Source: a virus. From it: 35,740 nucleotides of DNA. The first letter of the stretch is position 1, and every line of letters begins with the position of its first letter. The notes below the pieces were generated by a model, which saw only the letters and a program-made list of their open reading frames with translations, was not told where the DNA came from and made no database searches. Shown one piece after another: positions 3,391-32,893 of this stretch. The translations under genes and the position numbers were made by a program. The stretch lies in the IMG/VR virus record IMGVR_UViG_3300037247_001712, positions 1 to 35,740 of that record. One strand, written 5' to 3'.

Positions 3391-3612
3391 TTAGACAACT
3401 GTCTTATCACAAGCAAGAGATATTAATACATTGGCTAGATTTATTGTTTGTTGGCGGGTGAATCTAATTGCTTTTACAGGTTCCCGAAATGCTATGACTA
3501 CTTGGCCATTTACAATATTAATAGTAATGTTAATTTCTTTGGGGATTTCTTTTGGTGGGTTCTTATCTTTTTTATAATTAAACAAGTTTATAATCTTTGA
3601 GTCATTTCCCAT
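3391..3612 (-). CDS. Hypothetical protein, 73 residues
   Basis: Not recognised. It has a basic, Asn/Lys/Pro-rich N-terminus and a predicted beta segment (INITINIVNGQVVIAF), then a helix (RQQTINLANVLISLAC). It overlaps the end of the SpeD-like gene by 11 bases in another frame, so it is translated from the same message. It sits between the SpeD-like gene and the portal. Confidence 0.6.
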   Translation of the reverse strand: MGNDSKIINLFNYKKDKNPPKEIPKEINITINIVNGQVVIAFREPVKAIRFTRQQTINLANVLISLACDKTVV

Positions 3613-3988
3613 TCCACACCCCCCTTTTAATAGTATTTACATTAAACATTATTGCCCCAAAGTAGTTTCTGGTGAACTTGATTGCATCTATGTTGTCAAA
3701 TGGCTTACATGAAAATATATTAATATATGCTTCTTTCAATATAGTTAACGCATGTATGGTTATCGAACTTGTGATTATAAATTGAACTGCGGTAATACCA
3801 ACAACATGAGGCTCAGTTCTTTTTTCTTTTTCTGGAATTCCTTCATCATCCCAAAAATATAGATCTTCCCTTTTCATATCTATAAGATCGCACAGCCCGA
3901 TAAAATATGCTGCTATATGTTCTCGGGTAAACATTAGTATATCACAGCCCTTTAGGTCTAGAATTAATTCTTGGCCGTATGATTTCAT
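3602..3988 (-). CDS. speD: S-adenosylmethionine decarboxylase (SpeD)-like pyruvoyl enzyme
   Basis: A 128-residue protein matching the small bacterial AdoMet decarboxylase fold. It opens with GQELILDLKGCD, like the GxHxxxDLxGC start of SpeD. The self-cleavage site reads TSSITIH. Ser74, His79 and Cys94 have the same +5 and +20 spacing as Ser63, His68 and Cys83 of the Thermotoga enzyme; Ser74 would become the pyruvoyl group. The residue before Ser74 is Thr rather than Glu, and the one after is Ser rather than His, so substrate or cleavage may differ. Known relatives of this family have become ornithine or arginine decarboxylases, so the substrate is open. Strong Shine-Dalgarno (AGAAAGGGGG). It sits oddly inside the packaging module, between the glycosylase-like gene and the portal. 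Confidence 0.72.
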   Translation of the reverse strand: MKSYGQELILDLKGCDILMFTREHIAAYFIGLCDLIDMKREDLYFWDDEGIPEKEKRTEPHVVGITAVQFIITSSITIHALTILKEAYINIFSCKPFDNIDAIKFTRNYFGAIMFNVNTIKRGVWNGK

Positions 3989-7350: not shown

Positions 7351-8295
7351 TTATGGAATTGTAACATCAAAATCTTCACTTGGGTTTTCATCTGTAGAGA
7401 ATTCTACATAGCTTGCATCAATACCAGATGGTCTACGTTTCCATGACCATGTGGAAATTGGTGTATTGGTAGATTCATCATCAAATAAAACTGTCAGAGA
7501 ATCTTTCTTTTTTCTTGGAGTACCGGAAAAAGCTGCTATTGGAACGGGCAAATCAAATTCAGCAACTCTGTTGAAAGCAGAATCTGGTACATAAAATTTA
7601 GATCCATCTGGTTTGAAAAAAAGCCCAAATGAAAAGGGCGTTTGGGAAATGCTAAATAATTGTAGAAAGGTTGATGAAGAAATATCCCAGGCTACAGACA
7701 AATCGTATTCATTGATTTTATCTTGAACGGATCCTGTAACGTACATTTTTAATCCATCAGGTTTAAAAAACAGACCTTTAGGACTTGCATCTTGTCCAAC
7801 AACACTAAGAGTTTGAAGAAAAGTAGATGATGTTATATCCCAAGCTACGCTTAAATCATATTCGTGAATTGAATTTGAGGCATCACCAAGTAGATAAAAT
7901 TTTAGCCCATCGGGTTTAAAAAATAAAGCGGTTGGACTTGTATCCTTACCTGACACATCGAGAAGTTGTAAGAAAGTGGCTGATGTAATATCCCAAGGAG
8001 TACTTAAATCATATTCATTGGTATTACGGCTGGTCCTACCAGATACATACATTTTGGTTCCGTCTGGTTTGAAAAAAAGCCCTTGAGGATTAATGTCCTC
8101 AGAATTGACAGAGAAAACTTGTAAAAAAGCTGCAGATGAGATATCCCAGGCTGTACTTAAATCATATTCATTGACTCTATCACTATTCCCTATGACGTAC
8201 ATTTTAAGTCCGTCTGATTTAATAAAAAGACTAGCAACAATAGTAAGTGATTTGTTTTGTAAATGAACGGTAGTTGATATGTCCCATGCAGTCAT
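7351..8295 (-). CDS. Beta-propeller repeat protein, likely appendage or receptor-binding
   Basis: A 314-residue protein built of five tandem units of about 46-51 residues. Each unit reads roughly WDISSSTFLQ, then LFFKPDGLKMYVTG, then INEYDLS: four-stranded blades of a beta-propeller. A C-terminal region of about 60 residues (from PVPIAAFSGTP) contains a W-W pattern like a PKD or Ig-like fold. Such propellers occur in phage adhesins and bacterial surface proteins. No signal peptide. Between the connector genes and the packaging genes it is best read as a tail or spike component; this is inference. Confidence 0.6.
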   Translation of the reverse strand: MTAWDISTTVHLQNKSLTIVASLFIKSDGLKMYVIGNSDRVNEYDLSTAWDISSAAFLQVFSVNSEDINPQGLFFKPDGTKMYVSGRTSRNTNEYDLSTPWDITSATFLQLLDVSGKDTSPTALFFKPDGLKFYLLGDASNSIHEYDLSVAWDITSSTFLQTLSVVGQDASPKGLFFKPDGLKMYVTGSVQDKINEYDLSVAWDISSSTFLQLFSISQTPFSFGLFFKPDGSKFYVPDSAFNRVAEFDLPVPIAAFSGTPRKKKDSLTVLFDDESTNTPISTWSWKRRPSGIDASYVEFSTDENPSEDFDVTIP

Positions 8296-8309
8296 AATTG
8301 TTTTTTTAT

Positions 8310-9104
8310 TTAATTAGGATCTATAAAGGCCTGAATAAAGTTACGCTTTTCAATAGTATCAGTTCCATCAGCATTTGTAATAGTTAGCTGAATATCCCAT
8401 TCTTGAATAGCCCAGGGTGGTGTTTGTCTGCGGTAAAAAGCAGATAATGTTTTTTGCATAAAAGCTTGATAGGTTCCCAACATTATTGCTCTTGTTTGTC
8501 CTTCTCTCCACCAGCTTGGCGGAATGAAGATATTATACCAATGTTCTTTTTTTGGCCTTGGTCCATTAGCAATAGGAATATTACCTGAGTCTGGTTGAAT
8601 GTTCCATGTTTTAACTGCTTGATCCCTAAAAACTTTATGTGTCTTGTTAAGTGATATATCAGCCTTTTCATTTGGTTGTGAGATGATGTCTTTAAATGGT
8701 TTTCTCCGCCCTAGTCTTTGCCTTTTAGGTTTTTTAGGAAATCGACCTTGTGGTCTTTTTCTTTTTGATAGTGGTATCATTATCTTTCTTCTAAACCTAT
8801 CATCCCTTTCTATTTCATCGGGCTCAAAATCAAAAGGCCAGTTGGTATGACTTGGAGTAAAAAAACTAGGATCGGTATCAAAATGTTCAAGATCTCTTAG
8901 TTCCATTTCAAGAAATAGATTGGTATGTGCAATTTGCAATCTCTTATCTCGAGGATTTAGAAGGTGTTCAAGTTCCACTCGATTATGTGCTCTGAGTAAT
9001 AATTGTGTTGGAAGTGAATGTACAAAAGATTTGTTTAACAGACTTGTTGATAAACTTCCGATATCTCCTGCGGTAAGAATTTGTGCTTTTGTTAATTCAG
9101 CCAT
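8310..9104 (-). CDS. Probable structural protein of unknown family, 264 residues
   Basis: Not recognised. The middle third (about 105-135) is extremely basic (KRKRPQGRFPKKPKRQRLGRR), flanked by acidic and Trp-rich parts; the C-terminus has a beta region (WDIQLTITNADGTDTIEKR). It starts seven bases after the gp36-like stop. By position it could be a head-tail or tail component that contacts DNA. Confidence 0.5.
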   Translation of the reverse strand: MAELTKAQILTAGDIGSLSTSLLNKSFVHSLPTQLLLRAHNRVELEHLLNPRDKRLQIAHTNLFLEMELRDLEHFDTDPSFFTPSHTNWPFDFEPDEIERDDRFRRKIMIPLSKRKRPQGRFPKKPKRQRLGRRKPFKDIISQPNEKADISLNKTHKVFRDQAVKTWNIQPDSGNIPIANGPRPKKEHWYNIFIPPSWWREGQTRAIMLGTYQAFMQKTLSAFYRRQTPPWAIQEWDIQLTITNADGTDTIEKRNFIQAFIDPN

Positions 9105-9110
9105 GAAATG

Positions 9111-9572
9111 TTAGAAGAAATCAAGTTTGCGATCTGCTAATCCAGGATTAATACGATTACCATCTCGATCTATTTTAGAAATTGCGGCTATCGGCTCAAC
9201 TCCTGTTCTTGTATTATGAATTGCATCCTTTTCAACTGAACCATCCGGGCCCGTGGCAAACAATCTTAACTTATTAATTAACGATTTAGCTTCTTGAAAG
9301 AACGGATTGTAAGTGGCGAACTCAAAACCCGCAGTAGTTGAATTGGATTTCAATATTAACCCTACGGCATAATTAGCTTCGGCAAGCATTATTGTTTTAG
9401 AAACTGTACCAGTAAAAGGAACTGTATATCTATCTCTTAAATTATCATTTACCCAATCATTAGCTTTCGCTCGTTCCTTTGCAAAATCACTTTCTCCAGT
9501 CGCATGGTCTGGTGCTGTGGCTATTGCATGAAATAATTGATCCAAATCTTCGTCTGCACTATATGTTGCCAT
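9111..9572 (-). CDS. Head completion/connector protein, Mu gp36-like
   Basis: A 153-residue protein starting MATYSADEDLDQLF and containing WVNDNLRDRYTVPF (about 40-53). This is the pattern of the DUF1320/gp36-type connectors that dock beneath the portal: a helix, then LxxRYxxPF. The C-terminal 50 residues are an extended tail. Good Shine-Dalgarno (AGGAGAAAT). It supports a Mu-related head. Confidence 0.65.
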   Translation of the reverse strand: MATYSADEDLDQLFHAIATAPDHATGESDFAKERAKANDWVNDNLRDRYTVPFTGTVSKTIMLAEANYAVGLILKSNSTTAGFEFATYNPFFQEAKSLINKLRLFATGPDGSVEKDAIHNTRTGVEPIAAISKIDRDGNRINPGLADRKLDFF

Positions 9573-9658
9573 CTTTATTTCTCCTGATAATGTTAGAAAT
9601 TTCCTGTAAGCTTATTCTTTATTTGTATTTTGTCAAGTCTCAACAGAAAGCTCCAACA

Positions 9659-9886
9659 TCACATGCCTTTTCCGATCAGCTTATGTTCTAATGTATGTCC
9701 GGCATTTATTACATCTTGTTCTGTAAGCTCGATATGTTTGGTAGTATCTTTTCCAAGCGCCAGGATTAATAATACGATACGTTCCCGGATATCTCCCAAC
9801 TTATGTTTTTTGTTGAATTGTTCGCTGAAGCTTGGTTCTGGTTTGCATGTGTTATATGCTTGAAATGATTCTCGGCTTATTTTCAT
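9659..9886 (-). CDS. Hypothetical helical protein, 75 residues
   Basis: Not recognised. Charged helical protein (FNKKHKLGDIRERIVLLILALG). It overlaps the upstream gene by ATGA. The gap after it (9573-9658) holds only a TTGACA-containing stretch and the next Shine-Dalgarno. Confidence 0.55.
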   Translation of the reverse strand: MKISRESFQAYNTCKPEPSFSEQFNKKHKLGDIRERIVLLILALGKDTTKHIELTEQDVINAGHTLEHKLIGKGM

Positions 9887-10056
9887 TTTTGTTCAATTAT
9901 TCCAAGAGCATCTATAATATCCTGTCGCTTAGCTTTCCATTTCCTTAATATTTTACCACCACCCCAAGGTTTACTACCGCAAATACGCATATTGTTAATA
10001 CTTACAGAATCTCCTTCTACTCCTGAAATAAGTTCTATTAATATATATTCTTCCAT
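9883..10056 (-). CDS. Hypothetical protein, 57 residues
   Basis: It starts at the ATG at 10056 (MEEYILIELISG), which has AAAGGGA at good spacing; a TTG start at 10083 is less likely. A beta-rich start is followed by a basic helix (KWKAKRQDIIDALG). Function unknown. Confidence 0.55.
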   Translation of the reverse strand: MEEYILIELISGVEGDSVSINNMRICGSKPWGGGKILRKWKAKRQDIIDALGIIEQK

Positions 10057-10079
10057 ATTATTTCCCTTTCTGTAAACAT

Positions 10080-10265
10080 TCAACCATTATAATTTCTTTC
10101 TGTAATCTTCTCGCTTATCTCTTTTCCGTTTCCATCAACCATTGTATTTATATGACCAGAAACAATAACATCAACAACCCATTTCCCGGAAGTAGTTTTA
10201 ACCCAAAACGGATGAATACCTTTTCTGCAATGTCTGACTAAATATACTTTACGTATTTCAAGCAT
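10080..10265 (-). CDS. Hypothetical protein, 61 residues
   Basis: It starts at the ATG at 10265 (MLEIRKVYLVRHC), preceded by AAGGAA. A longer frame to 10421 overlaps the neighbouring gene and is unlikely. It reads as a small beta protein (HPFWVKTTSGKWVVDVIVSGHINTM). Function unknown. Confidence 0.5.
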   Translation of the reverse strand: MLEIRKVYLVRHCRKGIHPFWVKTTSGKWVVDVIVSGHINTMVDGNGKEISEKITERNYNG

Positions 10266-10272
10266 TATTTTT

Positions 10273-10509
10273 TTATTCCTTGTCAAAATCCCAATCAGTA
10301 GATACTGCTTCTTGCCATGTACCATCAAGATAAATCTGAAATTCACTATCATTATTAATCCACCTGTAAGGTAACGGTGCTCTACAATGATATATGTTTC
10401 TTTCTCCAATAGATGCACCATTTCCTTTATCTAACAATTCTTGTCTTAAAAAAGCTAATCCATCACCATCTCTGATTAATTCCTTTAAATATTTATTATA
10501 TAAATTCAT
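10273..10509 (-). CDS. Hypothetical protein, 78 residues
   Basis: Begins MNLYNKYLKELIRDGDG, with a strong GGAGGT ribosome site. Acidic, Trp-containing C-terminus (WINNDSEFQIYLDGTWQEA). Not recognised. Upstream, 10510-10625 holds no gene. Confidence 0.6.
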   Translation of the reverse strand: MNLYNKYLKELIRDGDGLAFLRQELLDKGNGASIGERNIYHCRAPLPYRWINNDSEFQIYLDGTWQEAVSTDWDFDKE

Positions 10510-10625
10510 TTTTTATACCTCCAAAAAAGAGCCGTGACGTTGCCTTGCAAAATAAATGGTTTTTATTAAAAAAATAGTGCGAAGCATTTCCTTATTACTC
10601 CCGAACAAAGTGAGGGAAAAATTTT

Positions 10626-10820
10626 TTAAGTAATTTTGATAACTTGATAATCTTGTCGGACAAGATATTTTTGACATGCGATTGTTGAAATACGAACGCT
10701 TGTTACTTCCAGATTCTTTGCGAGTCTATCACTTTCTGTTTCAATTATGTCTTTCTCCATCTTACTCATATAATCGTTATATCTTTCCGTCATATCTTTT
10801 TCTATTTCGCCTAAACTCAT
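10626..10820 (-). CDS. Hypothetical helical protein, 64 residues
   Basis: Helical, charged (MSLGEIEKDMTERYNDYMSKMEKD). The Shine-Dalgarno GAAGGAGA lies in the last codons of the upstream gene. Function unknown. Confidence 0.55.
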   Translation of the reverse strand: MSLGEIEKDMTERYNDYMSKMEKDIIETESDRLAKNLEVTSVRISTIACQKYLVRQDYQVIKIT

Positions 10821-10821
10821 T

Positions 10822-11058
10822 TTATTCTCCTTCTATGATTACACCCTGATTATTTTCTTTAGCTAATTCTATATGAATTGATCCTTTATTGTGTCCACAA
10901 CAGCTGGATATTGTTTCAATATCCAAATTATTTAAATCTTTTATAATTGAAGCAATACAACTATCAATTTGTTTTTCTCTATAATATTCCTTTCCAGTAC
11001 AACTAAGGAAATTAGGTATTTTAACTATACATGAAACTGTATTCCCCCATTCACACAT
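10822..11058 (-). CDS. Conserved phage-type protein with SCCGH motif, 78 residues
   Basis: MCEWGNTVSC at the start and TISSCCGHNKGSIHIEL near residues 51-67. This WGxTV...SCCGH arrangement recurs in small phage proteins; the Cys/His residues may bind metal. The start is the ATG at 11058, overlapping the upstream TGA by one base. Confidence 0.6.
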   Translation of the reverse strand: MCEWGNTVSCIVKIPNFLSCTGKEYYREKQIDSCIASIIKDLNNLDIETISSCCGHNKGSIHIELAKENNQGVIIEGE

Positions 11059-11282
11059 CAAAATACCTCCAGTGATTCGTCAGTCATAAATCCATGTTCA
11101 CATTTTGGACACATAACACAAAACGGTTTATCAATGTTTACCCTTCTATGATATTTTATATGTTTTTCATATTCTTTGATTGCTTCTTGTCTTGTCATAG
11201 TCCCTGTTCTTACTACATGCCATCCGCATTTACAATCTAACTGAGCATCACTTAATGATACTATTCTTAACTTATGTTCCAT
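11058..11282 (-). CDS. Small zinc-binding protein, 74 residues
   Basis: Contains CKCGWH and CVMCPKCEHG, two Cys pairs that suggest a zinc ribbon, with intervening histidines (EKHIKYHRR). GGAGG precedes the ATG. Probably nucleic-acid or protein binding; function unknown. Confidence 0.6.
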   Translation of the reverse strand: MEHKLRIVSLSDAQLDCKCGWHVVRTGTMTRQEAIKEYEKHIKYHRRVNIDKPFCVMCPKCEHGFMTDESLEVF

Positions 11283-11288
11283 AATATA

Positions 11289-11375
11289 TCATCCTCCGAA
11301 TAATACAAAGTTTAGTGCCTGACTAAAGGCATAAGATAAAATAATAATTGTAAATACTTTGTAAAGTTTATTCAT
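11289..11375 (-). CDS. Tiny membrane peptide, 28 residues
   Basis: MNKLYKVFTIIILSYAFSQA and eight more residues: a single hydrophobic helix with a basic start. It overlaps the upstream gene by eight bases. It resembles the 22-residue peptide at 17328-17396 in design. Could be real or a by-product of AT-rich DNA. Confidence 0.35.
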   Translation of the reverse strand: MNKLYKVFTIIILSYAFSQALNFVLFGG

Positions 11376-11538
11376 TTATTTGCTTTGTTTTTCTAAGCCA
11401 TTTCCAACATTCCCCTGCCCTCATATTCCCGATATATTTATTACCTTTAAAAATAGAGCGTTGGTAATTAATTCCTTTTGTGTGGCTATAACCTAATTGT
11501 GTTAAGACTTCGGATAATGTCATATTTTTCGTTTCCAT
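11368..11538 (-). CDS. Hypothetical basic protein, 56 residues
   Basis: METKNMTLSEVLTQLGYSHT, then a basic, aromatic C-terminal half (RAGECWKWLRKTKQ). The start is preceded by GAAAGG. The first 20 residues could form a small HTH-like helix pair. Unknown role. The 182 bases upstream (11539-11720) hold no gene. Confidence 0.5.
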   Translation of the reverse strand: METKNMTLSEVLTQLGYSHTKGINYQRSIFKGNKYIGNMRAGECWKWLRKTKQINE

Positions 11539-11720
11539 AATTATTTTTTCCTTTCAACATCAAGCGCCTTGCAGAGTTTGAAAAAATTATTTATAATTTC
11601 CTATTTAAAAAATTAGAATGATTTCCGTTGTGCCTTGAAGGTGTAATCTTCCCTGTTTTTATTTACACATTTTGCGCATGGAAGCTCAACAAGACACTAG
11701 GGGATTATTCAATTAATATA

Positions 11721-11924
11721 TCAAGGAGAATCAATACCATTATCTAAATCTATCATCTGTGCATCTACGAATTCCATACCACCTTCGCCGAGTCCATCAG
11801 GTTCTACTTCATAACATTCTCCACAATTTGGATTATTACATTCAACTGAAATAGTATCTCCAAATCCTGCAGTACCTAAAATTTCCAAATTTCCTATTTT
11901 ACATTCTCTGCATTTTCTCGACAT
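11721..11924 (-). CDS. Small zinc-ribbon protein, 67 residues
   Basis: CRECKIG at the N-terminus and CNNPNCGECYEVEPDG about 25 residues later form a likely four-Cys ribbon. The Glu-rich tail EVEPDGLGEGGMEFVDAQM recalls a common small phage protein. Shine-Dalgarno AAAGGGAGAA overlaps the preceding gene's last codons. Confidence 0.6.
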   Translation of the reverse strand: MSRKCRECKIGNLEILGTAGFGDTISVECNNPNCGECYEVEPDGLGEGGMEFVDAQMIDLDNGIDSP

Positions 11925-11928
11925 AATA

Positions 11929-12516
11929 TTATTCTCCCTTTAATGCTGTAAAGATTTTCTCGAATTGTTCGACTGTTATGCCTGATAATTCAATTTTCAG
12001 TTTATCACCGTAGCTTTCAACACTTAAACTAATTTCTTCTCCTAATACCTCATAAGCTGTTACTCTCTTGTCATAGCCTGTTCCATATGGTTTTTGTTTT
12101 AAAATCATTGCAACTTTGTTTATGTTAGCTTCTTTTTTATCAAGGCGTTCATTTGTTGTATTTGCAAAATCAAAGGCTTTTTGGTGTTCAATTTCAAAGG
12201 TTGGGAAGAATCGCCTTTCAATATCTCTAGCAATTTGTTCAGGTGTCTTTGAGCATGACAGGTTAATTTCAAGGCGTTTTTCGTTATATGAATGGCTGTT
12301 ATCCTTTGCTCCAGGATATGAGGCACAAATATTGAATTTCCCCTTCGGACTCCAATTATAATCACCACCAACAATGTGAAATTCTTTACCGTTTTTTCGC
12401 AACCATGAATAACCGTAGGAAAATCTGTCCTCTTTGAATACAACATTATAGCCTAAGAGTTTCGCAATTTTCTTAATCTTGCCTTGATATTCTTTTTTTT
12501 CCTGTTCTGGTCGCAT
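11929..12516 (-). CDS. Hypothetical protein, 195 residues
   Basis: Not recognised. Alpha/beta protein: basic helical start, beta-rich middle with several Trp/Tyr (FSYGYSWLRKNGKEFHIVGG), a long helix (about 100-140) and a C-terminal helix-strand part (LSVESYGDKLKIELSGITVE). Good AAGGAG ribosome site. The largest protein of the small-gene block. Confidence 0.6.
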   Translation of the reverse strand: MRPEQEKKEYQGKIKKIAKLLGYNVVFKEDRFSYGYSWLRKNGKEFHIVGGDYNWSPKGKFNICASYPGAKDNSHSYNEKRLEINLSCSKTPEQIARDIERRFFPTFEIEHQKAFDFANTTNERLDKKEANINKVAMILKQKPYGTGYDKRVTAYEVLGEEISLSVESYGDKLKIELSGITVEQFEKIFTALKGE

Positions 12517-12540
12517 TTCAATTGCTCCTTTCTAAAAGTT

Positions 12541-12586
12541 AGAATAATTACCCTTGCCTGCCTTCACAAGCTCGGGTGATAATTCT
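12541..12586. other. Intergenic inverted repeat
   Basis: AGAATAATTACCC (12541-12553) faces GGGTGATAATTCT (12574-12586); 11 of 13 positions pair. It sits between the stop at 12585 and the gene starting at 12516. There is no U-run, so it is more likely a processing or stability hairpin than a terminator. Confidence 0.4.
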
Positions 12587-12755
12587 AAAACGAATTATCA
12601 GAGGATGATTCTTTTTCATCTTCTGGTGGATATTCTTCCAAGACATTAAAGCAACTTGCATCAATTAATTGGGCTAATTTCCGAAAGTTATCTATAGCTT
12701 CTGCCTCATTTTCTCCATCAACAATAATTTTAAGATCTACTTCAAAACGTTTCAT
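12585..12755 (-). CDS. Hypothetical acidic protein, 56 residues
   Basis: MKRFEVDLKIIVDGENEAEA: a beta strand then helix, then an acidic tail (PPEDEKESSSD). GGGGGAT precedes the ATG at 12755. The pattern resembles the small beta-alpha-beta proteins common in phages. Function unknown. Confidence 0.55.
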   Translation of the reverse strand: MKRFEVDLKIIVDGENEAEAIDNFRKLAQLIDASCFNVLEEYPPEDEKESSSDNSF

Positions 12756-12797
12756 AAAATCCCCCAATCTAAAAAGTTAAAATTGTTTGCTAATATT

Positions 12798-13154
12798 CTA
12801 TACAAAAGTAACCCCTTTTCTATAATCTAAAACCCGACACTTATGCTCAACTGCGAAACCATACATAGACTCCGTACCTTTACCACCGGGAAATAACAAT
12901 ACTGCATCAGCGTAAATAGCCATATTTCTATTTCTAATCCAACCTGCAGATCGACCAAACTTATGCCAATTTGCAGGAAACTCTGTAAACTTGATACCAT
13001 AACCTAATGCGTAAAACTTAGCTTCTGTATCTGCACCAGAAGCACCACCTGATACTATCTCAGTGATGTTATGCTTAACAATAATACTATCTAGTAACTT
13101 AATGTCGTTATCTGTAAATTTATAATGTCGCCCACCACTAATAGCTAGTTTCAT
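12798..13154 (-). CDS. YspA-like SLOG-family protein (DUF2493)
   Basis: A 118-residue Rossmann-like protein. KLAISGGRHY at the start, IVSGGASGADTEA (33-45), FPANWHKFGRSAGWIRN (59-75) and ADAVLLFPGGKGTE (83-97) match the YspA branch of the SLOG superfamily. These domains bind or process nucleotide-derived ligands; phage copies are common but of unknown role. Its ATG overlaps the upstream stop (ATGA). Confidence 0.75.
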   Translation of the reverse strand: MKLAISGGRHYKFTDNDIKLLDSIIVKHNITEIVSGGASGADTEAKFYALGYGIKFTEFPANWHKFGRSAGWIRNRNMAIYADAVLLFPGGKGTESMYGFAVEHKCRVLDYRKGVTFV

Positions 13155-13309
13155 TTTGTTTCTATGTCCCGAATTAAATTAGAAATATATCTTCTTTGAG
13201 TTACTAAAGCAGAGGGTATATGAATGAGATCTAATTCGAATAAAATATCGATACATTTATTTAAGTGATCTTCAACTTCTTTTAATTTTAACAATTCTTT
13301 TGTAACCAT
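13151..13309 (-). CDS. Small helical protein, first gene after the control region, 52 residues
   Basis: MVTKELLKLKEVEDHLNKCI, an amphipathic helix, then a second helix (ALVTQRRYISNLIRD). AGAGGAATAG ribosome site. It is the first gene downstream of the structured leader and terminator (13523-13337), so readthrough of that terminator may control it and the operon. Function unknown. Confidence 0.55.
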   Translation of the reverse strand: MVTKELLKLKEVEDHLNKCIDILFELDLIHIPSALVTQRRYISNLIRDIETK

Positions 13310-13336
13310 GTTCTATTCCTCTTTTTCGCCTATAAT

Positions 13337-13379
13337 AAAAAAGCCGGAAAATCACCTGATTTTGTTTTACGGCTTTTTT
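13337..13379 (-). terminator. Intrinsic terminator (bidirectional) before the first operon gene
   Basis: AAAAAAGCCG (13337-13346) pairs with CGGCTTTTTT (13370-13379); inside, AAAATCA pairs with TGATTTT. Each strand ends in a T-run, so it can stop transcription both ways. On the minus strand it lies 28 bases upstream of the ATG at 13309, a place typical for an attenuator. Confidence 0.75.
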
Positions 13380-13393
13380 AGAGATGTTTTATT

Positions 13394-13523
13394 AGGAATG
13401 AACGTAGCGATTCTCCGCTTATCTTTACCTATGAACTCCCCTGCTTAGGGTAAAGCAGATAGTATGAACAAAAGTGTCTTGTCTTTTGGGCGTGCTAGAT
13501 GCTACGTGGAGTAGAATATTCCT
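13394..13523 (-). ncRNA. Structured RNA, putative 5' leader/attenuator element
   Basis: Nested pairings enclose 130 bases: AGGAAT (13394) with ATTCCT (13518), ACGTAGC (13402) with GCTACGT (13501), and two hairpins, CTGCTT/AAGCAG (13441/13453) and CAAAAG/CTTTTG (13469/13483). On the minus strand it precedes the terminator and the first gene, the layout of a riboswitch or attenuator. On the plus strand it would end at a T7 tract (13529-13535) as a free RNA. I match it to no known family; orientation is unresolved. Confidence 0.45.
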
Positions 13524-13551
13524 TTGGTTTTTTTGTGATAAGGATTGATAT

Positions 13552-13570
13552 CTATAGTAAATTTGTATTA
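13552..13570 (-). promoter_or_regulatory. Possible promoter upstream of the structured leader
   Basis: The minus strand reads TAATACAAATTTACTATAG. TACTAT could be a -10 with a poor TTAAAA-like -35 in the T/A-rich stretch upstream. It superficially resembles a T7 promoter but has one extra base and no phage RNA polymerase is encoded. Confidence 0.25.
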
Positions 13571-13605
13571 AATTCTTTTTAAAAAAAATATTCTAACATT
13601 GATGC

Positions 13606-13654
13606 ATATGCCACACTACTGTCTGATATGCCACAAATTGGTGTATATGCCACA
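13606..13654. repeat. Three 20-bp-spaced iterons (ATATGCCACA)
   Basis: ATATGCCACA occurs at 13606, 13626 and 13645: spacings of 20 and 19 bases, about two helical turns. An A/T-only tract (about 13560-13595) lies directly beside them. Same-face iterons next to an AT-rich segment are the usual form of a replication origin or an initiator-regulated operator. Which protein binds is not known. Confidence 0.55.
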
Positions 13655-13665
13655 ACTGTAAACCT

Positions 13666-13706
13666 GTTCATTAAATGAACAATAATAAAGTGTATAAAAA
13701 TTATAC
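13666..13706. promoter_or_regulatory. Two small dyads, possible regulator sites
   Basis: GTTCATTAAATGAAC (13666-13680) is a perfect 15-bp dyad. GTATAA/TTATAC (13692-13697, 13701-13706) is a second. Both are operator-like but unassigned. Confidence 0.4.
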
Positions 13707-13725
13707 AGTCTGTAAAGATTTAAGG

Positions 13726-13830
13726 TGCAGGAATTTAACTGCATTAATAAGTAGGTAATTGAACAAAAGGAATGTGCAGGAAAATTACTGCGTACTTTAT
13801 ACGTTGTAACTGCCATAAATTTGGTGCAGG
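13726..13830. repeat. TGCAGG repeats at about 50-bp spacing
   Basis: TGCAGGAATTTAACTGCA (13726-13743, itself a TGCAG/CTGCA dyad) is echoed by TGCAGGAAAATTACTGCG (13775-13792) and a partial copy beginning TGCAGG at 13825. Starts are 49 and 50 bases apart. Probably binding sites for one protein. Confidence 0.4.
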
Positions 13831-13959
13831 TATCAATTCAGGGAACCGTGGGTAGCTACATGGGATTTTTGTTTAAGTTAGGGTGGGTGGGAAGCTTATG
13901 ATGTGGGAAAGCCAAGTGATACTGTGATAATAATCAATAGATATTAAAATAAACGGTAT

Positions 13960-13975
13960 TGTTCCACGTGGAACA
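13960..13975. promoter_or_regulatory. parS: parS-like centromere site (perfect palindrome)
   Basis: TGTTCCACGTGGAACA is a perfect 16-bp palindrome matching the chromosomal parS consensus bound by ParB CTPases (TGTTnCACGTGnAACA). Only one copy is seen. No ParA or ParB gene is in the genome, so the binding protein would be the host's. It lies in the non-coding control region, 0.3 kb from the iterons and 0.9 kb from the 12-copy array. Confidence 0.7.
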
Positions 13976-14052
13976 TTTATCTGCTGAGCAGGAGAATGAT
14001 CAAGTCAAGACTTGGGATGCTTTGCGGGTGGGGCATCTTGGTTAGCTTGTCC

Positions 14053-14234
14053 TTGGACTGCTGAAATTTGGGCTGCTACTTGTAGAATATTTATACACTG
14101 TATCAAAATGACACACTTTTTCAGGATTAATTGACTGTATCAAATTGACACAGTTTTGGGTTGCTACTTGGACTTGGGATTTTTTGGGCTGCTCCTTATA
14201 TAGTAAGCGAACCTCGGGCTTGTCTTGGGCTGCT
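14053..14234. repeat. Degenerate TTGGGCTGCT repeats in a G-rich stretch
   Basis: TTGGACTGCT (14053), TTGGGCTGCTACTTG (about 14068), TTGGGTTGCTACTTG (about 14156), TTGGGCTGCT (about 14184) and CTTGGGCTGCT (about 14224). The two operator copies lie among them. Frames through here on both strands are simple by-products of the repeats; I accept no gene. Confidence 0.4.
14099..14152. promoter_or_regulatory. Two copies of a 17-bp operator-like dyad
   Basis: TGTATCAAAATGACACA (14099-14115) and TGTATCAAATTGACACA (14136-14152), 37 bases apart. The consensus TGTnTCAAnTTGAnACA is dyad-symmetric. A third copy lies inside the gene at 19961-20818 (20232-20248). The half-sites resemble parS arms but with a three-base centre instead of two. 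Confidence 0.55.
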
Positions 14235-14542
14235 GGCCGTGGTTGTCGGGAAGCAAATTGGGCTAGCTTACACCTGGCTAGCTCTGACAAAACAAAATAG
14301 CGAGCATTTAAAAAATCTGAAGATATACATAAAGAACTTTATGTTAGTCCTAAACCTTTACAGCCAAAGGATAAAATATCACTCCGATAGCTCTACGTTT
14401 GATAATGATTCATTATCAGATGAAGAGCGCGTCAGTACCGCCTTGCGGTATTAATTCGGAGTAAGGATATTTTACTTCAGATTTCAATCAAGCGAGCGAC
14501 TCCGCTTTTCCTCAGTCAGATAATCGCTTTTAAAATTTTATT

Positions 14543-14557
14543 CTGCCATTATGGCAG
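14543..14557. other. 15-bp perfect palindrome
   Basis: CTGCCATTATGGCAG, one mismatch from 1809-1823. About 100 bases earlier TACCGC-CTT-GCGGTA (near 14437) is another hairpin. Otherwise the stretch 14240-14740 shows no gene that I can support. Confidence 0.35.
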
Positions 14558-14743
14558 TCCGATATCTGAGGACAATAGATATTTATCTTGAAAGCCCACC
14601 CGGAGGGACAAATCATATTCACTAACAAATCTACTCATCATTAAAGAGCACACAACCACGCATCCAACTCACCTTACTATCTCATTACATAATATAAAAA
14701 TTAATGTAACTGCGTGTCCAGAAGAGTTAGCGTAAGCTATACT

Positions 14744-14770
14744 AAGCGAGCGCAGCGAGCGAAGCGAAGC
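14744..14770. repeat. Short AGCGAGCG tandem repeats
   Basis: AAGCGAGCGCAGCGAGCGAA and a following AGCGAAGC form a GC-rich island in AT-rich DNA; a further AGCGAGCG copy is near 14490. Meaning unknown; it flanks the left end of the 12-copy array. Confidence 0.4.
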
Positions 14771-14826
14771 TAATCATATATTTAGAAGAGCTTGCGCGTA
14801 AGCGCGATTATCATTCTTAATAAGTT

Positions 14827-15688
14827 AGGATTACCATTCCTATTAAATTTTGGGTTCCCCTTTTTCTTTTCTCCCTTTATTTCAATTTAATTTTATAGGA
14901 TTACCATTCTTATTTTTTTTCCTTCCCTCATTTTTTTTCTATTCATTCTTCCTACCTAGGTTAGATTTTAGGATTACCATTCTTATTTTCTTCAGATAAA
15001 ATTTTTCTTCCCTATTCTTCCTTCTCTATTTCTCCTTCTCTTTTCTATAAGATTACCATTCCTACTACCTTCTTATTTTCTTATTTCTCTTCTCCTACCT
15101 TATTCTCTTATTTATTCCTCTGTTATAGGATTACCATTATTGTTCTTCTCCACACTTTTTTTATTTTCCTACCCCTTCTTCCTTTCTATTTTTCTTCATA
15201 TATTCTAAGGATTACCATTATCCTTCCCTCTCTGTTCCTTCTTATCCCCTTACCCTATCCTGCCTATTTGCTCTTGTGTCTTAGGATTACCATTCCTCTC
15301 TATTCTTACTCCTTTCTATTCTTCCCTATCCCCCCTTCTGTCTGTTCTACTTTCTTCTTACATGGGATTACCATTCTTATCTACCTATCCGCCTATATAT
15401 CTTCTTACCTACTTGAATTTTTAGTTCAAGCGGCTTCTACACAGGATTACCATTCCCGCTTTGCTATCATTTAACCCCCGGTCTATTGAAGCTTTAGTTT
15501 CTGCTCAGGTGTTGATTTGAGTAGGATTACCATTCGTATCTAAACTTGTGTTCATACTTGAGCGCGAGTACAAAGTCAAATTCAAGTTCAATTTGAATAG
15601 GATTACCATTCGGAGTTAAAGGTGAGTTCAAGCTCAAGCTCAGTTTAAATGTCGATTTAAAAAAGAATTTTACATAGGATTACCATTC
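14827..15688. repeat. Array of twelve 13-bp direct repeats spaced about 77 bp apart
   Basis: AGGATTACCATTC (core GATTACCATT invariant in all twelve) starts at 14827, 14897, 14970, 15049, 15127, 15208, 15283, 15364, 15443, 15523, 15599 and 15676. Steps are 70, 73, 79, 78, 81, 75, 81, 79, 80, 76 and 77. A degenerate copy is at 14804. All have the same orientation. The intervals are unrelated to each other in sequence, though those up to about 15400 are almost pure pyrimidine on the plus strand. No gene is present. The repeats are too short and the intervals too long for CRISPR. Best reading: an array of protein-binding sites (partition, origin or packaging). Confidence 0.8.
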
Positions 15689-15951
15689 TTGTTTTAAAAA
15701 AATTTAAAAAACTTTTATTTTTTAGAACTTTGATTTGAAATTTCTGTTTTTTCCAATATTCCTATTTATTCATTTTGCTGGATAACACAACAGATTCTAA
15801 AGTAGTTACAATTTTCTTTGTTCATACCGTGAACGCTCGAGGATTGATTGTGTGGGGGAAAATGGGGTTTGGTATGGTATGGGAAGGAAATGTGGTGGAA
15901 AGTGGCTGGTTGGTGGTGATATGGGCGGGGATTATGGTGGTTTGGGGTATA
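15689..15951. other. Gene-free segment with a G-rich plus strand
   Basis: After an A/T-rich part (to about 15780), the plus strand from about 15851 to 15951 is strongly G- and T-rich with many GGG or GGGG runs (for example GTGTGGGGGAAAATGGGG), giving G-quadruplex potential. Open frames here are low-complexity. The segment ends at the stop of the gene at 15952. Confidence 0.45.
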
Positions 15952-16706: not shown

Positions 16707-17138
16707 TTAAGATTGTGGTGTATTAAGTGCTTTTTCTAAAGAACAATTATTTCTTATTCTAAACCATAAAGTGTCGTAAGTTAAGCCGGCCCACTCTGCC
16801 CATTCTGCGATAGTTTTTTCCATGCCTTTATATATAAAAGTTCTATTATTCCCTTTATTATTATTTTGTTCTTTCACAGTAGCCCATCTGCAATTACTTG
16901 GACAATAATTTTTTTCCTTGTTTTTTCTATCTAGTGTAGTACCTTCTGGCCTCTCACCCATATCCCTTAAGAAGTTTTTAAACTCATACCATTGTGTGTA
17001 TATTTTTATTCCTTTACCTCCATAAATTGAAAACCATAGATGTTTTGGATTAAGACACCTTTCCTTCATCGATCGCCATGAGTTATATGCTAGCGTTCTC
17101 TTGGAATTCCAATTATTTTTTCTTACTTTTTTAGCCAT
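16707..17138 (-). CDS. HNH-type endonuclease/DNA-binding protein
   Basis: A 143-residue protein with YGGKGI (39-44), a W..F..FL.DMG segment, LDR (69-71) and CPSNCRWAT (79-87): the signature of a common free-standing phage HNH-like family. The C-terminal 40 residues (KTIAEWAEWAGLTYDTLWFR) form a helix-turn-helix for target recognition. Probably a homing-type mobile gene or DNA-binding protein. It overlaps the RHH gene by 16 bases. Confidence 0.65.
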   Translation of the reverse strand: MAKKVRKNNWNSKRTLAYNSWRSMKERCLNPKHLWFSIYGGKGIKIYTQWYEFKNFLRDMGERPEGTTLDRKNKEKNYCPSNCRWATVKEQNNNKGNNRTFIYKGMEKTIAEWAEWAGLTYDTLWFRIRNNCSLEKALNTPQS

Positions 17139-17311
17139 TTATTATGTTTATTTATAAATCTATTCAATTCTTTTTTATCGCTAATCTTTATACAAAATTC
17201 AATCATTCTTCTCACAATCTCAGATTGATTTGTTTGATTTACTTTAGCTGTAAATTTTAATTTCTTTGCGGTACTCTCGTCAACGTAACTATGAACGATA
17301 ATTTTATTCAT
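17123..17311 (-). CDS. Ribbon-helix-helix DNA-binding protein
   Basis: A 62-residue protein with a beta ribbon (MNKIIVHSYVDESTAKKLKF) followed by NQSEIVRRMIEFCI, the second helix of CopG/Arc-type repressors. Likely a small transcription factor; it is the best candidate in this genome for binding one of the operator repeats, but no evidence links them. No Shine-Dalgarno. Confidence 0.6.
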   Translation of the reverse strand: MNKIIVHSYVDESTAKKLKFTAKVNQTNQSEIVRRMIEFCIKISDKKELNRFINKHNKWLKK

Positions 17312-19402: not shown

Positions 19403-19480
19403 AGGCAAATAGAAAGACAGGAGTCGAACCTGCATCTCCCCGCTAAAGGTGAGTTCCCATTACACTACTTTCTATTGCCT
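19403..19480 (-). tRNA. tRNA-like sequence, shortened and probably non-standard
   Basis: On the minus strand TAGAAAG (19474-19468) pairs perfectly with CTTTCTA (19416-19410) as a 7-bp acceptor. The T arm is canonical: GCAGG, loop TTCGACT, CCTGT. The core is only 65 bases: the D arm is reduced (GTGTAATGGG...) and the anticodon stem is imperfect around CTTTAGC. Depending on pairing the anticodon reads UUA (ochre) or UAG (Leu CUA). AGGCAA and TTGCCT extend the acceptor by six more pairs beyond one bulged base. No CCA is encoded. It may be a decayed tRNA or a tRNA mimic. Confidence 0.45.
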
Positions 19481-19960: not shown

Positions 19961-20818
19961 CTAAGTCTTTGCTGCGTAGGAATCTAAGCCATCAATAATC
20001 TTGAAAAAGTTATACTCAGTTTTGCAAATTCGCCTTTTCAATATCCATTTCGATAAACAAAAAAGTCCGGCAACGAAACAACCCCTTATAACCTCTGATT
20101 TTGATTGATTTTCAAGAAATTCGTTCTCATATTTGTGTAAAATTATGTGAAATCTCTCAGACAGTCTGGCTTTCAAGTATTTATTATTCGAGTCTCGCTT
20201 TAATCTATACATGGCTGAAGTAAGCGGAGATTGTGTCAATTTGAAACACTTTTTCCTAATAGAATCCAAAACATGCAGATCTCTTTCTTTGAATTCTAAC
20301 TTGGGAATATCCCAGGATCGATAGATTTTGTTCCAGATTTCTCGGCCATATTCATTGTTACCGTAACTTTCAACCAATAATTTCAGGTACCCTACAGTTT
20401 TTTTATCCTCTAAATTCAGTCGGTTTAGAGATAAATCAAATCTTTTCATGTTTTCTATTTTCCGGTTATTTCTACAGTGTATTAGAATTGCTTCTATCAG
20501 GTCCCTATATCCTAGATAATTCGCGAGTTTTGCTTTTGCTAATATTCCTATTCCTACGACTGCCCTTATCATGTCCGCTTCCCGGGCCCTGACAATGCCT
20601 CTGTTGCGCAAAACCTCCATTAAACTGTAATGGTATGCTGAGATCGTAAAAGAGGCGTTCTGGCTCTTAAACTTATCACCTTTGAATAAGCTGAGAAGGT
20701 TATAGAAGATTTCGGGTTGAATTTGAGTTTCTATGCCAATATATCCGATTGTGTCGATGGGATCTGACATATTACCATCCCCAGGCTTGATTAGATTGGA
20801 CTTGTCTGGTTTGTTCAA
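19961..20818 (-). CDS. Replication-module protein of unknown family with LIKP N-terminus
   Basis: A 285-residue, mostly helical protein not matched to a family. It starts with TTG at 20818 after a G-rich ribosome site (nine G in a row on this strand). The first 20 residues contain NLIKPGDGNM, matching VKPGDGDM in the protein at 22336; those codons differ at every third base, so the conservation is at protein level and supports the TTG start. Basic and hydrophobic helices follow. It is flanked by iteron-like repeats downstream and carries an internal operator-like site, so a replication initiator or regulator is possible; that is inference only. Confidence 0.6.
   Translation of the reverse strand: MNKPDKSNLIKPGDGNMSDPIDTIGYIGIETQIQPEIFYNLLSLFKGDKFKSQNASFTISAYHYSLMEVLRNRGIVRAREADMIRAVVGIGILAKAKLANYLGYRDLIEAILIHCRNNRKIENMKRFDLSLNRLNLEDKKTVGYLKLLVESYGNNEYGREIWNKIYRSWDIPKLEFKERDLHVLDSIRKKCFKLTQSPLTSAMYRLKRDSNNKYLKARLSERFHIILHKYENEFLENQSKSEVIRGCFVAGLFCLSKWILKRRICKTEYNFFKIIDGLDSYAAKT
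20232..20248. promoter_or_regulatory. Third copy of the 17-bp operator-like dyad, intragenic
   Basis: TGTGTCAATTTGAAACA fits TGTnTCAAnTTGAnACA. Its reverse complement differs from the copy at 14136 by one base of 17. It lies inside the coding region at 19961-20818. It is also followed by CTTTTTC, as is the copy at 14099. Confidence 0.5.
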
Positions 20819-28527: not shown

Positions 28528-30033
28528 TTAGTTAAGTGTTACGCCAATATGTAAAGAAGCGTCATTGATAGAATTGTTTACTGCAGTTGTGATTCTAACG
28601 ATTACACCTTCACCACTATTGCCAGCTACTGCGGTTGAAAGACCAGATCTTTTATATGCAAAGCTTTCTCCGCTTGCTACATCATTATTAGTATTATAAT
28701 CTGTGGCAAGACTTATTAATGCTGTTTGATTAGGTATAAATGCTGATTCATGATAAAGAAAGGCGGTGGCCTCATGATGTAATAATTCAATATTTAAACC
28801 AGTTTCATTTGCTCTGGCTTCACCTGTCATTTCAAAGTCCGTAACAGTAAATGCTCTATTGCCAAAATCTTCATATTTTACAAATCCATAATTAAAATCA
28901 AAGGTTCCGGCAGATCCAGTTAATGTATATGTTATCTGGCCAAGCCATTTTTTAGATGTTTCAAAATAGTCATTTATTAAAGCCGTATCAGCATCGGCTA
29001 CAATAATTTCTGTATCCGAATCATTTCTTGCTCCAGCATCGGTTATTGAAACGCCAGTTACCGTTAATACTAGATCGGTTCCGCCTGCACCTTCGGCCAC
29101 ACAAAAAGCATGTGCTCCATGTGCTTGTCCAGCAGTACCAAATGTTTGTATTACTGTACCACCAATAACTAACTGCGCTTCAGCAGCAGCAAAAATATAA
29201 TGTCCACCTATATAGAAAGTGTCAGCAGTACCAGGATTTGATAAAGAATATGATTTAAAGGAAGGTGTACCGCCTATCTGTTCCCATCCTGTATTACTTG
29301 CGGAACCGCTTATCTTAAGATATAAACCGCCGTTAGTTGTATCTAATGTTAAATCACCAATACTACCAGTTATTACACCTTCGGGAGAAGCGTCATCACG
29401 GAATATCTGGAAATCACCACCAGTATTAGATATTTCTAATATAGCGGAAGTATCTACTCCATTAGATTTTATTTCAGTAAGAGTTTCAGATGATGCTTCT
29501 GTAACCCTTATACCTTCTATTGATTTTGATATGAGGGAAATATAATTACTTGAAGGAAGCCCGCCAAGACCAGAAGTGGTATCACTACTATCTGGAAGAA
29601 GTCCTGGATTTGTTGCAGAAGTGGTAGTATTTTGTATTCCTGGCCTCCCTGCGGTATTAGGTCGGATTAAACTTGCAGTAAATGCCCATGTTGGAGCGGT
29701 ATCAAATACAAAAGTCATTTGAGAACCAGCTATTTTAAGCCCTGTATCAGAATTGCTTATAAATGCTAATGCGGGCGCAGCATCACTACCATCGGAAAGT
29801 AAGATGAAACCATCAAATGAAACCCCCCCGGAAACCGAAGATAATGTAGTTCCATCTGCAAATGAAATCTGATTCCATTTACCCGAACCATTCAAATCAT
29901 TTTTTAGTGCTTGCCAGACTTCAGTTGAACCTAAAGGCGTGGGGATATTCCATTGCGAGAATGATGTCTTGGCAATAGTCAAGAAAAAGAAACTAATTAT
30001 AAAAAAGACAGATAAGAATTTTTTATTTAACAT
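28528..30033 (-). CDS. Fibre-like protein with N-terminal signal peptide, 501 residues
   Basis: A signal peptide (residues 1-25, FFIISFFFLTIAKTSFS) is followed by repeated Ser/Thr/Gly/Asp-rich beta segments. Residues near 235-255 (TNGGLYLKISGSASNTGWEQ) match a phrase common in phage tail-fibre shafts. The rest (about 290-501) looks like a beta-sandwich tip domain. A Sec signal is odd for a virion protein, since tailed phages assemble in the cytoplasm; it may be an exported, surface-acting protein instead. AGAAGGAAT ribosome site. Confidence 0.55.
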   Translation of the reverse strand: MLNKKFLSVFFIISFFFLTIAKTSFSQWNIPTPLGSTEVWQALKNDLNGSGKWNQISFADGTTLSSVSGGVSFDGFILLSDGSDAAPALAFISNSDTGLKIAGSQMTFVFDTAPTWAFTASLIRPNTAGRPGIQNTTTSATNPGLLPDSSDTTSGLGGLPSSNYISLISKSIEGIRVTEASSETLTEIKSNGVDTSAILEISNTGGDFQIFRDDASPEGVITGSIGDLTLDTTNGGLYLKISGSASNTGWEQIGGTPSFKSYSLSNPGTADTFYIGGHYIFAAAEAQLVIGGTVIQTFGTAGQAHGAHAFCVAEGAGGTDLVLTVTGVSITDAGARNDSDTEIIVADADTALINDYFETSKKWLGQITYTLTGSAGTFDFNYGFVKYEDFGNRAFTVTDFEMTGEARANETGLNIELLHHEATAFLYHESAFIPNQTALISLATDYNTNNDVASGESFAYKRSGLSTAVAGNSGEGVIVRITTAVNNSINDASLHIGVTLN

Positions 30034-30071: not shown

Positions 30072-30572
30072 TTATTTATGTGTTACTACCGAAGTACTGC
30101 AATTAATTATATCTGTGCCATTAGTATTTACTTTCACACCAAGTCTGTATGATGTCCAATATTCAGTAATAGGTATTGATGTGTCTATAGTTGAACTGGC
30201 CGCAATATTTTTAGTATGGATATTGGCCCAGGTTGACATTACAGTACTAACTTTTCCTTCAAGCCGAAAATCTAAACTTGTAGATCCTAAAAGGGAAACG
30301 GAAATAACAAGAGTTTTAGGACCAACAATACCTGTTATATCTACTTCTCCATCTGTTGTTAAAGTACCACCAGCCTCATTATAAACATATGATGTAGAAG
30401 TAGGATTAAATGAAGTAAAATGGTCTATGTGCTGGCCATATGCTAAGCCAGTATTAAAATCTGTAACAGTTACTCCATTTACATCACGTGCATAGGTATT
30501 GCCACAAAACAAACCTGTTAAAACTAAACAAAATATTAATGATCGTAAAATATTCCTTTTTCTATTTAACAT
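30072..30572 (-). CDS. Exported beta-rich protein, 166 residues
   Basis: Signal peptide (about 1-28, LIFCLVLTGLFCGNTYA), then a beta-rich domain (GTLTTDGEVDITGIVGPKTL, SLDFRLEGKVSTVMSTWANI). Start MLNRKRN resembles MLNKKF of the next gene. Not recognised; structural or surface protein by context. AGGAGG ribosome site. Confidence 0.5.
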   Translation of the reverse strand: MLNRKRNILRSLIFCLVLTGLFCGNTYARDVNGVTVTDFNTGLAYGQHIDHFTSFNPTSTSYVYNEAGGTLTTDGEVDITGIVGPKTLVISVSLLGSTSLDFRLEGKVSTVMSTWANIHTKNIAASSTIDTSIPITEYWTSYRLGVKVNTNGTDIINCSTSVVTHK

Positions 30573-30837
30573 TTTTAAGCCTCCTTATTATAATTTTCTT
30601 TTCATTGGATCTAAGCACAGCAAGAAAAATTTGTTCTAATTCATTTAAATTCATATAGTATTTAAGTTCTGTAGGATTCCACGCAATTGCACTTTTATTG
30701 TAATACAATGCCTTTTCAATATTCTTGTGCGCAAACCATTGCCGAGCGGTTTTCATATCAATGTCAGCTTTTAATCTGAATAATGAAAAACAAATTAAAA
30801 GACTACATACAATGATTACTGCTATTCTTAATGCCAT
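30562..30837 (-). CDS. Membrane-anchored TPR-like protein, probable split C-terminus of the O-antigen enzyme
   Basis: About 91 residues from the ATG at 30837. One membrane helix (ALRIAVIIVCSLLICFSLF), then a TPR-like pair (ARQWFAHKNIEKALYYNKSA, AWNPTELKYYMNLNELEQ). Cellular Wzy/WaaL-family proteins often end in such a segment, so this may be a detached C-terminal part, in a different frame overlapping the upstream gene by about 35 bases. No ribosome site of its own. Confidence 0.5.
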   Translation of the reverse strand: MALRIAVIIVCSLLICFSLFRLKADIDMKTARQWFAHKNIEKALYYNKSAIAWNPTELKYYMNLNELEQIFLAVLRSNEKKIIIRRLKNVK

Positions 30838-31948
30838 AAATCGCACCGCCAAACATTGAAAATAATAAAGTTATAGGTATATATGCCGGATTAAATTGTC
30901 GAAAGATTAAATATGCCAGACATATTGCCAGTAATGTATAAAATAGATTATGATTTTCTGTTTTATCAATTTTCAAAAAACTTTTTATTGAGCAATATCC
31001 AAGATAGCAAAGTGACAAAAGACCGATTACGCCTAGTTTAGCAAAATGACCTAAAATAATATTATGCGGTCTAATATTATCTTGACCAACACCAAAAATA
31101 GGAAAAGCTATACCAACTTTAAATGCATCAGTATAACGCTCTAATCTAAGTGAATAACTGGGCAGTCCTATAAATCTGATATAAAGATTAGATGTAGAAT
31201 ACTCGTAACGGTTAAAAAAAATTCCAATAATAAGAATTGTTGCAATTATAGATAATGTAATAATTTTAAAGTATTTATTGCTTTTGTATATAAATAATAA
31301 AGGTATTGAAGTAAATATGATTGCTAATAATCCAGATCGTGACATTGTGATAAAAATAGAAAACATTAATAATAGTAACGTGCCATATAAATATAATTTC
31401 TTTGTTCTTGTAATTTCAAATAAAACAACGGGAATCATCATAGCAATAAAGCATCCAAAGAAAACTGGATTTCCAAAAGTTGAAGAAATTCGGTTTCGTA
31501 TTGGTAAATAATCAAAGGTTACAATATTAGTTGATTGAAGAATACCATAAATACAAATTAAAATACTGATAATAATTAAAGACTTGAAAATAATCTTAAT
31601 ATTATCTTTATTAATAAAATTAGCAGATAAATAAAAAAAGGCGAGGTATATCAAAAGAGATAAAACCCCGCCATGTTGCTTGTACCCACCAAAAAAGGAT
31701 ATCACCCAATTATAAGAAAAAATCATTGAAGTGATACCGGCAAGTAGATAGATTAAAAGTGCAAGATTAACACCTTTTGTTTTACGAAAGATCCCATTCT
31801 TAAATCCTTTTACAGCCCAAAAGATACAAGCAATTGAAGTGCCTATAAACATAAAGGCTAATTTAGGCGCATCAAATGTCGTGTTTGCGTGTTTCAGAAG
31901 AAATATTCCACTGGTTCCACAAACAGTAGCCACAATAATATATAACAT
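30803..31948 (-). CDS. O-antigen polymerase/ligase-like membrane protein (Wzy_C family)
   Basis: A 381-residue protein with about ten hydrophobic helices. SSTFGNPVFFGCF, then TMSRSGLLAI, then FGVGQDNIRPHN in the large periplasmic loop are hallmarks of the Wzy/WaaL family. Such enzymes polymerise or ligate O-antigen. In a phage it could alter the host surface (serotype conversion or superinfection block). It is set among exported proteins rather than cell-type glycan genes, and starts by TAATG overlap with the upstream gene. Confidence 0.75.
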   Translation of the reverse strand: MLYIIVATVCGTSGIFLLKHANTTFDAPKLAFMFIGTSIACIFWAVKGFKNGIFRKTKGVNLALLIYLLAGITSMIFSYNWVISFFGGYKQHGGVLSLLIYLAFFYLSANFINKDNIKIIFKSLIIISILICIYGILQSTNIVTFDYLPIRNRISSTFGNPVFFGCFIAMMIPVVLFEITRTKKLYLYGTLLLLMFSIFITMSRSGLLAIIFTSIPLLFIYKSNKYFKIITLSIIATILIIGIFFNRYEYSTSNLYIRFIGLPSYSLRLERYTDAFKVGIAFPIFGVGQDNIRPHNIILGHFAKLGVIGLLSLCYLGYCSIKSFLKIDKTENHNLFYTLLAICLAYLIFRQFNPAYIPITLLFSMFGGAIYGIKNSSNHCM

Positions 31949-32855: not shown

Positions 32856-32893
32856 AATTGTTTTGATTATAAAGATTATACAAATAAAACTAA

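Follow-up and report, generated by a model that had tools for sequence, protein, structure and literature searches.

A putative iteron-like array of one-orientation repeats beside a T-tract in a phage without close cultured relatives

The window, i.e., the whole 35,740-nucleotide stretch of viral DNA analyzed here, harbors twelve exact copies of the word GATTACCATT (extended form, TAGGATTACCATTC), all in one orientation, across positions 14829 to 15687 of the plus strand; on the minus strand, which represents the gene direction, the word reads GAATGGTAATCCTA. We tentatively propose that these copies, together with a variant thirteenth copy, may constitute an iteron-like array of 12 to 13 sites for one DNA-binding protein, positioned beside an unwinding element in a region involved in replication or maintenance, a reading that we consider plausible while holding it somewhat short of probable. 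The array flags what is likely the control region of a phage group without close cultured relatives, and its 13-bp word provides a simple handle for fishing out the DNA-binding protein.

The first and last 127 bases of the window were found to be identical by sequence comparison, and the record is, therefore, a circular viral genome, complete at 35,613 bp, in which nearly every likely gene is located on the minus strand. Family scans identified a phage-type large terminase and a Mu-type portal and major head protein, in addition to a Rad3/DinG-type helicase, an ERCC4-type nuclease, and a PD-(D/E)XK exonuclease; a terminase ATPase-subunit match was also obtained, and one protein possesses a homolog in the related contig G002 which matches Sak4-like annealing proteins. 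The closest records are the IMG/VR contigs L043, which matches the window at 100% over 17.8 kb and stops short of the array, G002 (34,541 bp; terminase 84% identical to that of the window), and G004 (24,433 bp; terminase 73% identical), the latter two being linear and possibly incomplete records, with the G004 contig being incomplete. Cultured phages yielded distant matches only, no DNA match to the window was present in phage and plasmid collections, and a scan of genome contigs returned no capsid relative. The array is situated in a gene-poor control region (13155 to 15951), the sole long gene-free region of the window, which also contains the variant copy, a T-tract, a nested stem-junction, a parS-type palindrome, and other short repeat families. 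These families are found beside the array at positions 13597 to 14198 and comprise three copies of ATATGCCACA, three TTTGGGCTGCTACTTG-like copies, two copies of GTGCAGGAA..ACTGC, and two of CTGTATCAAAWTGACAC.

Copies of GATTACCATT start at positions 14829, 14899, 14972, 15051, 15129, 15210, 15285, 15366, 15445, 15525, 15601, and 15678, with steps of 70, 73, 79, 78, 81, 75, 81, 79, 80, 76, and 77 bp (mean, 77.2), and exact copies occur in this region only of the window. The coefficient of variation of the steps is 0.045, compared to a minimum of 0.279 among 20,000 random placements, and 16 matches with at most one mismatch were observed against 4.7 expected, with no shuffle reaching 16. The preliminary description had reported twelve one-orientation repeats at approximately 77 bp in gene-free DNA; this was confirmed as lying far beyond random placement and is extended here by the variant copy GATTATCATT (14806 to 14815, plus strand). 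This word is the one that occurs four times in G002 as AATGATAATC, and the variant is located 23 bp from the first GATTACCATT, the G002 array likewise ending in a close-set pair (20 bp). Conservation is confined to approximately 14 positions per unit, encompassing a 10-bp core which is invariant in 12 of 12 copies and the flanking positions T(-3), A(-2), G(-1), and C(+10), which are retained in 10, 11, 11, and 10 of the 12, respectively. Most spacers have diverged to background, yet two pairs of neighbors exceed shuffled sequences in mutual similarity (z = 4.3 and 3.2), and the earlier picture of an invariant word separated by unrelated spacers consequently holds for the core and for most of the spacers only. 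No helical phasing of the copies was detected in the window or in G002 (coherence P = 0.23 and 0.09, respectively).

A counterpart is present in G002 at approximately 28758 to 29544, where eleven copies are arranged on the strand pointing to the tail-gene block in the order four AATGATAATC followed by seven AATGAAAATN, with steps mostly of 91 to 96 bp and short steps at both ends. The words of the two viruses share the core AATGRWAATC, usually followed by C. Judged by sequence comparison, the G002 array is homologous to that of the window and differs from it in word, spacers, and spacing; the preliminary description had suggested looking in related phages for the same motif and spacing, and it is the array that was recovered there, with another word and period. 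With respect to the terminase, the tail-gene block has been flipped and rearranged between the two viruses (window 7351 to 13532 versus G002 30418 to 33555), and despite this flip the orientation of the array toward the block is kept in both viruses, the G002 array being located at the point where its two gene blocks diverge.

Because the core is invariant while most spacers are at background, and because a homologous array exists in G002, the proposal that the 13-bp/10-bp word is under selection is supported by these comparisons. The preliminary description had gone further in attributing both site and spacing to selection for binding by one protein; selection on a short directional site withstands scrutiny, but the argument from spacing is weaker, given the difference between approximately 77 and 92 bp in the two viruses, the lack of helical register, and the similarity of some spacers. 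Growth by duplication of a unit is probable, since some neighboring spacers resemble one another, in G002 (z = 6.1) as in the window, and since the G002 word variants are grouped in blocks. Such duplication would account for the nearly regular steps without invoking a functional ruler, and the regularity is, therefore, considered to be at least partly a trace of this process.

In G004, the genes around the corresponding place are ordered similarly to those of G002, and the approximately 770 bp between its T-tract and stems contain no array, degenerate arrays included, above the level of the six shuffles used for comparison. A single near-copy, ATTGATAATC, lies 5 bp after the T-tract. On the strand concerned, words as close as this have a density of 0.29 per kb, from which, by our own arithmetic, a chance hit within 15 bp of the T-tract has a probability of approximately 0.004. 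G004 thus seems to be a single-site virus, and the three genomes accommodate both an ancestral state and a loss. The preliminary description had named as counterevidence any related phage that lacks the repeats while retaining the same biology, a situation which G004 half presents, being without a significant array yet carrying an apparent single site beside the same T-tract. As G004 retains related replication genes, the array would not be essential to that biology. The resulting series of apparently one, 11, and 13 sites illustrates how a directional array with long spacing may develop from a single protein-binding site by amplification.

The T-tract of the window, TTTTTTAAATTTTTTT (15696 to 15711, minus strand), precedes the first copy, in minus-strand sense, by 8 bp and is the only such tract on either strand. 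The window, G002, and G004 each contain a single tract of the form T6+ A2-4 T6+, situated on the sense strand, compared to an expectation of 0.00 to 0.03 per strand, and this tract is followed by the sense-strand word AATGGTAATC after 8 bp in the window, by AATGATAATC after 9 bp in G002, and by ATTGATAATC after 5 bp in G004, such that tract and first site are conserved as a pair. It is plausible that one sequence-specific protein loads in one orientation on the asymmetric sites, which start 8 bp from this easily melted tract, that the tract serves as the unwinding element, and that the bound multisite complex sets the initiation or copy control of the DNA of a circular, probably self-replicating phage. 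We infer that the array would have arisen from a single site beside the tract through duplication of a unit of approximately 77 to 92 bp, after which the spacers may have drifted while the sites were kept.

The array resembles the iteron arrays of plasmid and phage origins in that its many direct repeats all point the same way and occupy non-coding DNA next to an AT-rich tract, here the unique and conserved T-tract with its putative unwinding role. Iteron origins are characterized by tandem, helix-phased repeats of approximately 17 to 22 bp, and classic iteron spacing is about 20 to 22 bp, whereas the units of the window and G002 are 10 to 14 bp long and are spaced by 70 to 96 bp (steps of 70 to 81 bp in the window); the spacing, at 77 to 92 bp in the two viruses, far exceeds that of classic iterons, as the preliminary description had remarked of the window. 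Also at variance with an iteron-like function, one relative has at most one site, the region contains no DnaA box, the third-position GC skew exhibits no clear switch at the array, and no initiator gene was identified, with no known Rep family initiator being found among the window proteins scanned.

Two proteins had previously been put forward as candidates for binding the array. The first, of 285 residues (19961 to 20818), drew no family assignment in the scans and is present in the window, G002, and G004, i.e., with or without an array, the G004 protein being 74% identical to that of G002. Two ribbon-helix-helix (RHH) modules were read in it by eye and are only a lead, and an AlphaFold2 model of the family (pLDDT 36.7) was too poor to use. 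The second, an RHH protein (17123 to 17311), weakly matches a transcriptional repressor family, and no relative of it was detected in G002 at an E value of ≤1e-4. An HNH protein (window 16707 to 17138) is common to the window and G002 and was not found on the incomplete G004 contig; such genes come and go.

A less likely but serious alternative is that the array acts as a transcription roadblock, on which a phage repressor bound to asymmetric one-orientation sites halts RNA polymerase entering the downstream gene block. The short asymmetric sites are oriented in one direction relative to that block in both array-bearing viruses, and a precedent is available in the mycobacteriophage L5-type repressors, which bind more than 20 asymmetric 13-mers, the orientation of which is correlated with transcription (PMC9283540). 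The stoperators of cluster A mycobacteriophages, such as L5 and TipsytheTRex, share with the array an asymmetric 13-bp site, a transcription-tied orientation, and many copies per phage, and the weak repressor match of the RHH protein accords with such a function. Stoperators are, however, dispersed genome-wide in many short intergenic gaps, while the exact copies described here are grouped at a single location at nearly regular intervals, and one gap would not need a dozen sites. Furthermore, no repressor conserved between the two viruses was found, and the scans returned the RHH protein only, with no match to an L5-family repressor.

Slightly less credible still is a centromere or stability locus, in which the array would tether or partition plasmid-like viral DNA, perhaps with host ParB at a nearby parS site. 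About a dozen directional sites do lie near one exact copy of a chromosomal-type parS palindrome, TGTTCCACGTGGAACA (13960 to 13975), which is identical to parS2 and parS3 of Pseudomonas aeruginosa (PMC4368675), and no integrase was recognized among the window proteins in the family scans. StbA of plasmid R388 also stabilizes its plasmid through direct repeats, the ATPase StbB not being required for stability (PMC3098194). The R388 stbDR repeats, similarly about ten in number and short, are, however, 9 bp long and 2 nucleotides apart (compared to approximately 64 here), form two sets of five beside the stb operon, and have no counterpart in the window in the sense that no StbA relative was identified. 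No ParA, ParB, ParM, or TubZ, and no partition ATPase, was recognized among the proteins scanned; with respect to ParABS, the window thus offers a parS site, no recognized ParA or ParB, and an array that is not itself parS. As the palindrome was not found in G002, which carries the array, nor in G004, parS and the array are not considered to form one unit. It is very improbable that the control region represents a composite maintenance locus in a phage-plasmid without recognizable partition genes of its own, in which a protein of the phage covers the directional array and host chromosomal ParB is recruited at a borrowed parS; were this the case, the viral circle would travel along with the host chromosome.

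Downstream of the array, a nested stem-junction (14312 to 14485, minus strand) combines a closing stem, a long arm capped by the hairpin TGATAATG/CATTATCA (14400 to 14418), a small hairpin, and a further hairpin, ACATAAA/TTTATGT (14327 to 14344). The same layout, including an ACATAA/TTATGT-type hairpin, is seen downstream of the array region in all three viruses with differing stem sequences, as judged by eye from three sequences (loci: window, 14312 to 14485; L058, 15014 to 15155; L167, 5319 to 5470), and folding is strong in the window, G002, and G004 (z = -4.8, -10.4, and -4.6, respectively), a feature that counts in favor of the iteron-like reading. This element, together with the strong purine bias of the gene-sense strand, would also suit an array acting as RNA, namely, a long purine-rich transcript with AAUGGUAAUCC every 77 nucleotides and a structured 3′ part, serving as a decoy or R-loop primer. 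Most array spacers are 76 to 86% purine on the minus strand, and the highest-purine 500-bp intervals of that strand genome-wide fall inside the array. The RNA reading is nonetheless improbable: the purine bias is weaker in G002, no consistent promoter is apparent, and no Rfam family was matched, the stem-junction included. Moreover, the stems are built from 60, 53, and 54 Watson-Crick pairs in the window, G002, and G004, respectively, with G-U pairs numbering only 3, 1, and 0, and the reverse strand of the stem region folds equally well or better, so a DNA cruciform is as plausible as an RNA structure.

The notion of a functionless minisatellite, produced by unit duplication and with cores conserved merely because they are recent or homogenized, draws on the duplicated appearance of some neighboring spacers and the blocks of G002 variants, and it is rendered very doubtful by the retention of all 10 core bases in 12 copies between mostly unrelated spacers and by the persistence across viruses of both the word and its position next to the T-tract. 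An assembly artifact, proof of which the preliminary description had named as counterevidence, is unlikely, because the spacers differ from one another and a second, independent virus carries a version of its own.

The dismissal of CRISPR in the preliminary description was justified. The period of 70 to 81 bp is CRISPR-like, but the conserved part spans approximately 10 to 14 positions rather than the about 23 to 47 bp of a CRISPR repeat, and no cas set was seen: a PADLOC scan of nine proteins returned only family-level DinG/Cas3 and Cas4 matches, i.e., the phage helicase and nuclease, and the DinG-type helicase and Cas4-like nuclease are also present in the array-less G004. A genome-wide scan with motif and spacing recovered CRISPR-looking arrays (classed by appearance alone) and coding repeats, from unrelated bacteria. 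Coding repeats were rejected, as most viral hits with at least two copies are spaced by multiples of 3, unlike the window steps. No open reading frame in the array is conserved in G002. Translation starts at the ATG of the minus-strand motif were also discounted, Shine-Dalgarno matches not being enriched before it. One G002 word resembles part of a Fur-like box, which is broken by the window copies and by the other G002 copies.

Elsewhere in the window, an S-adenosylmethionine decarboxylase-like protein (3602 to 3988; PF02675, E value of 2.9e-11) is phage encoded, perhaps for polyamines, and the product of positions 4009 to 4551 matches the PADLOC model OGG (E value of 2.5e-39), by name an 8-oxoguanine glycosylase-like protein. 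A tRNA-like gene, whose anticodon is unassigned and which is also an Rfam match, is located at 19408 to 19475 on the minus strand. Positions 30803 to 31948 encode an O-antigen ligase-like protein (Wzy_C), which is 76% identical in G002 and possibly changes the host surface.
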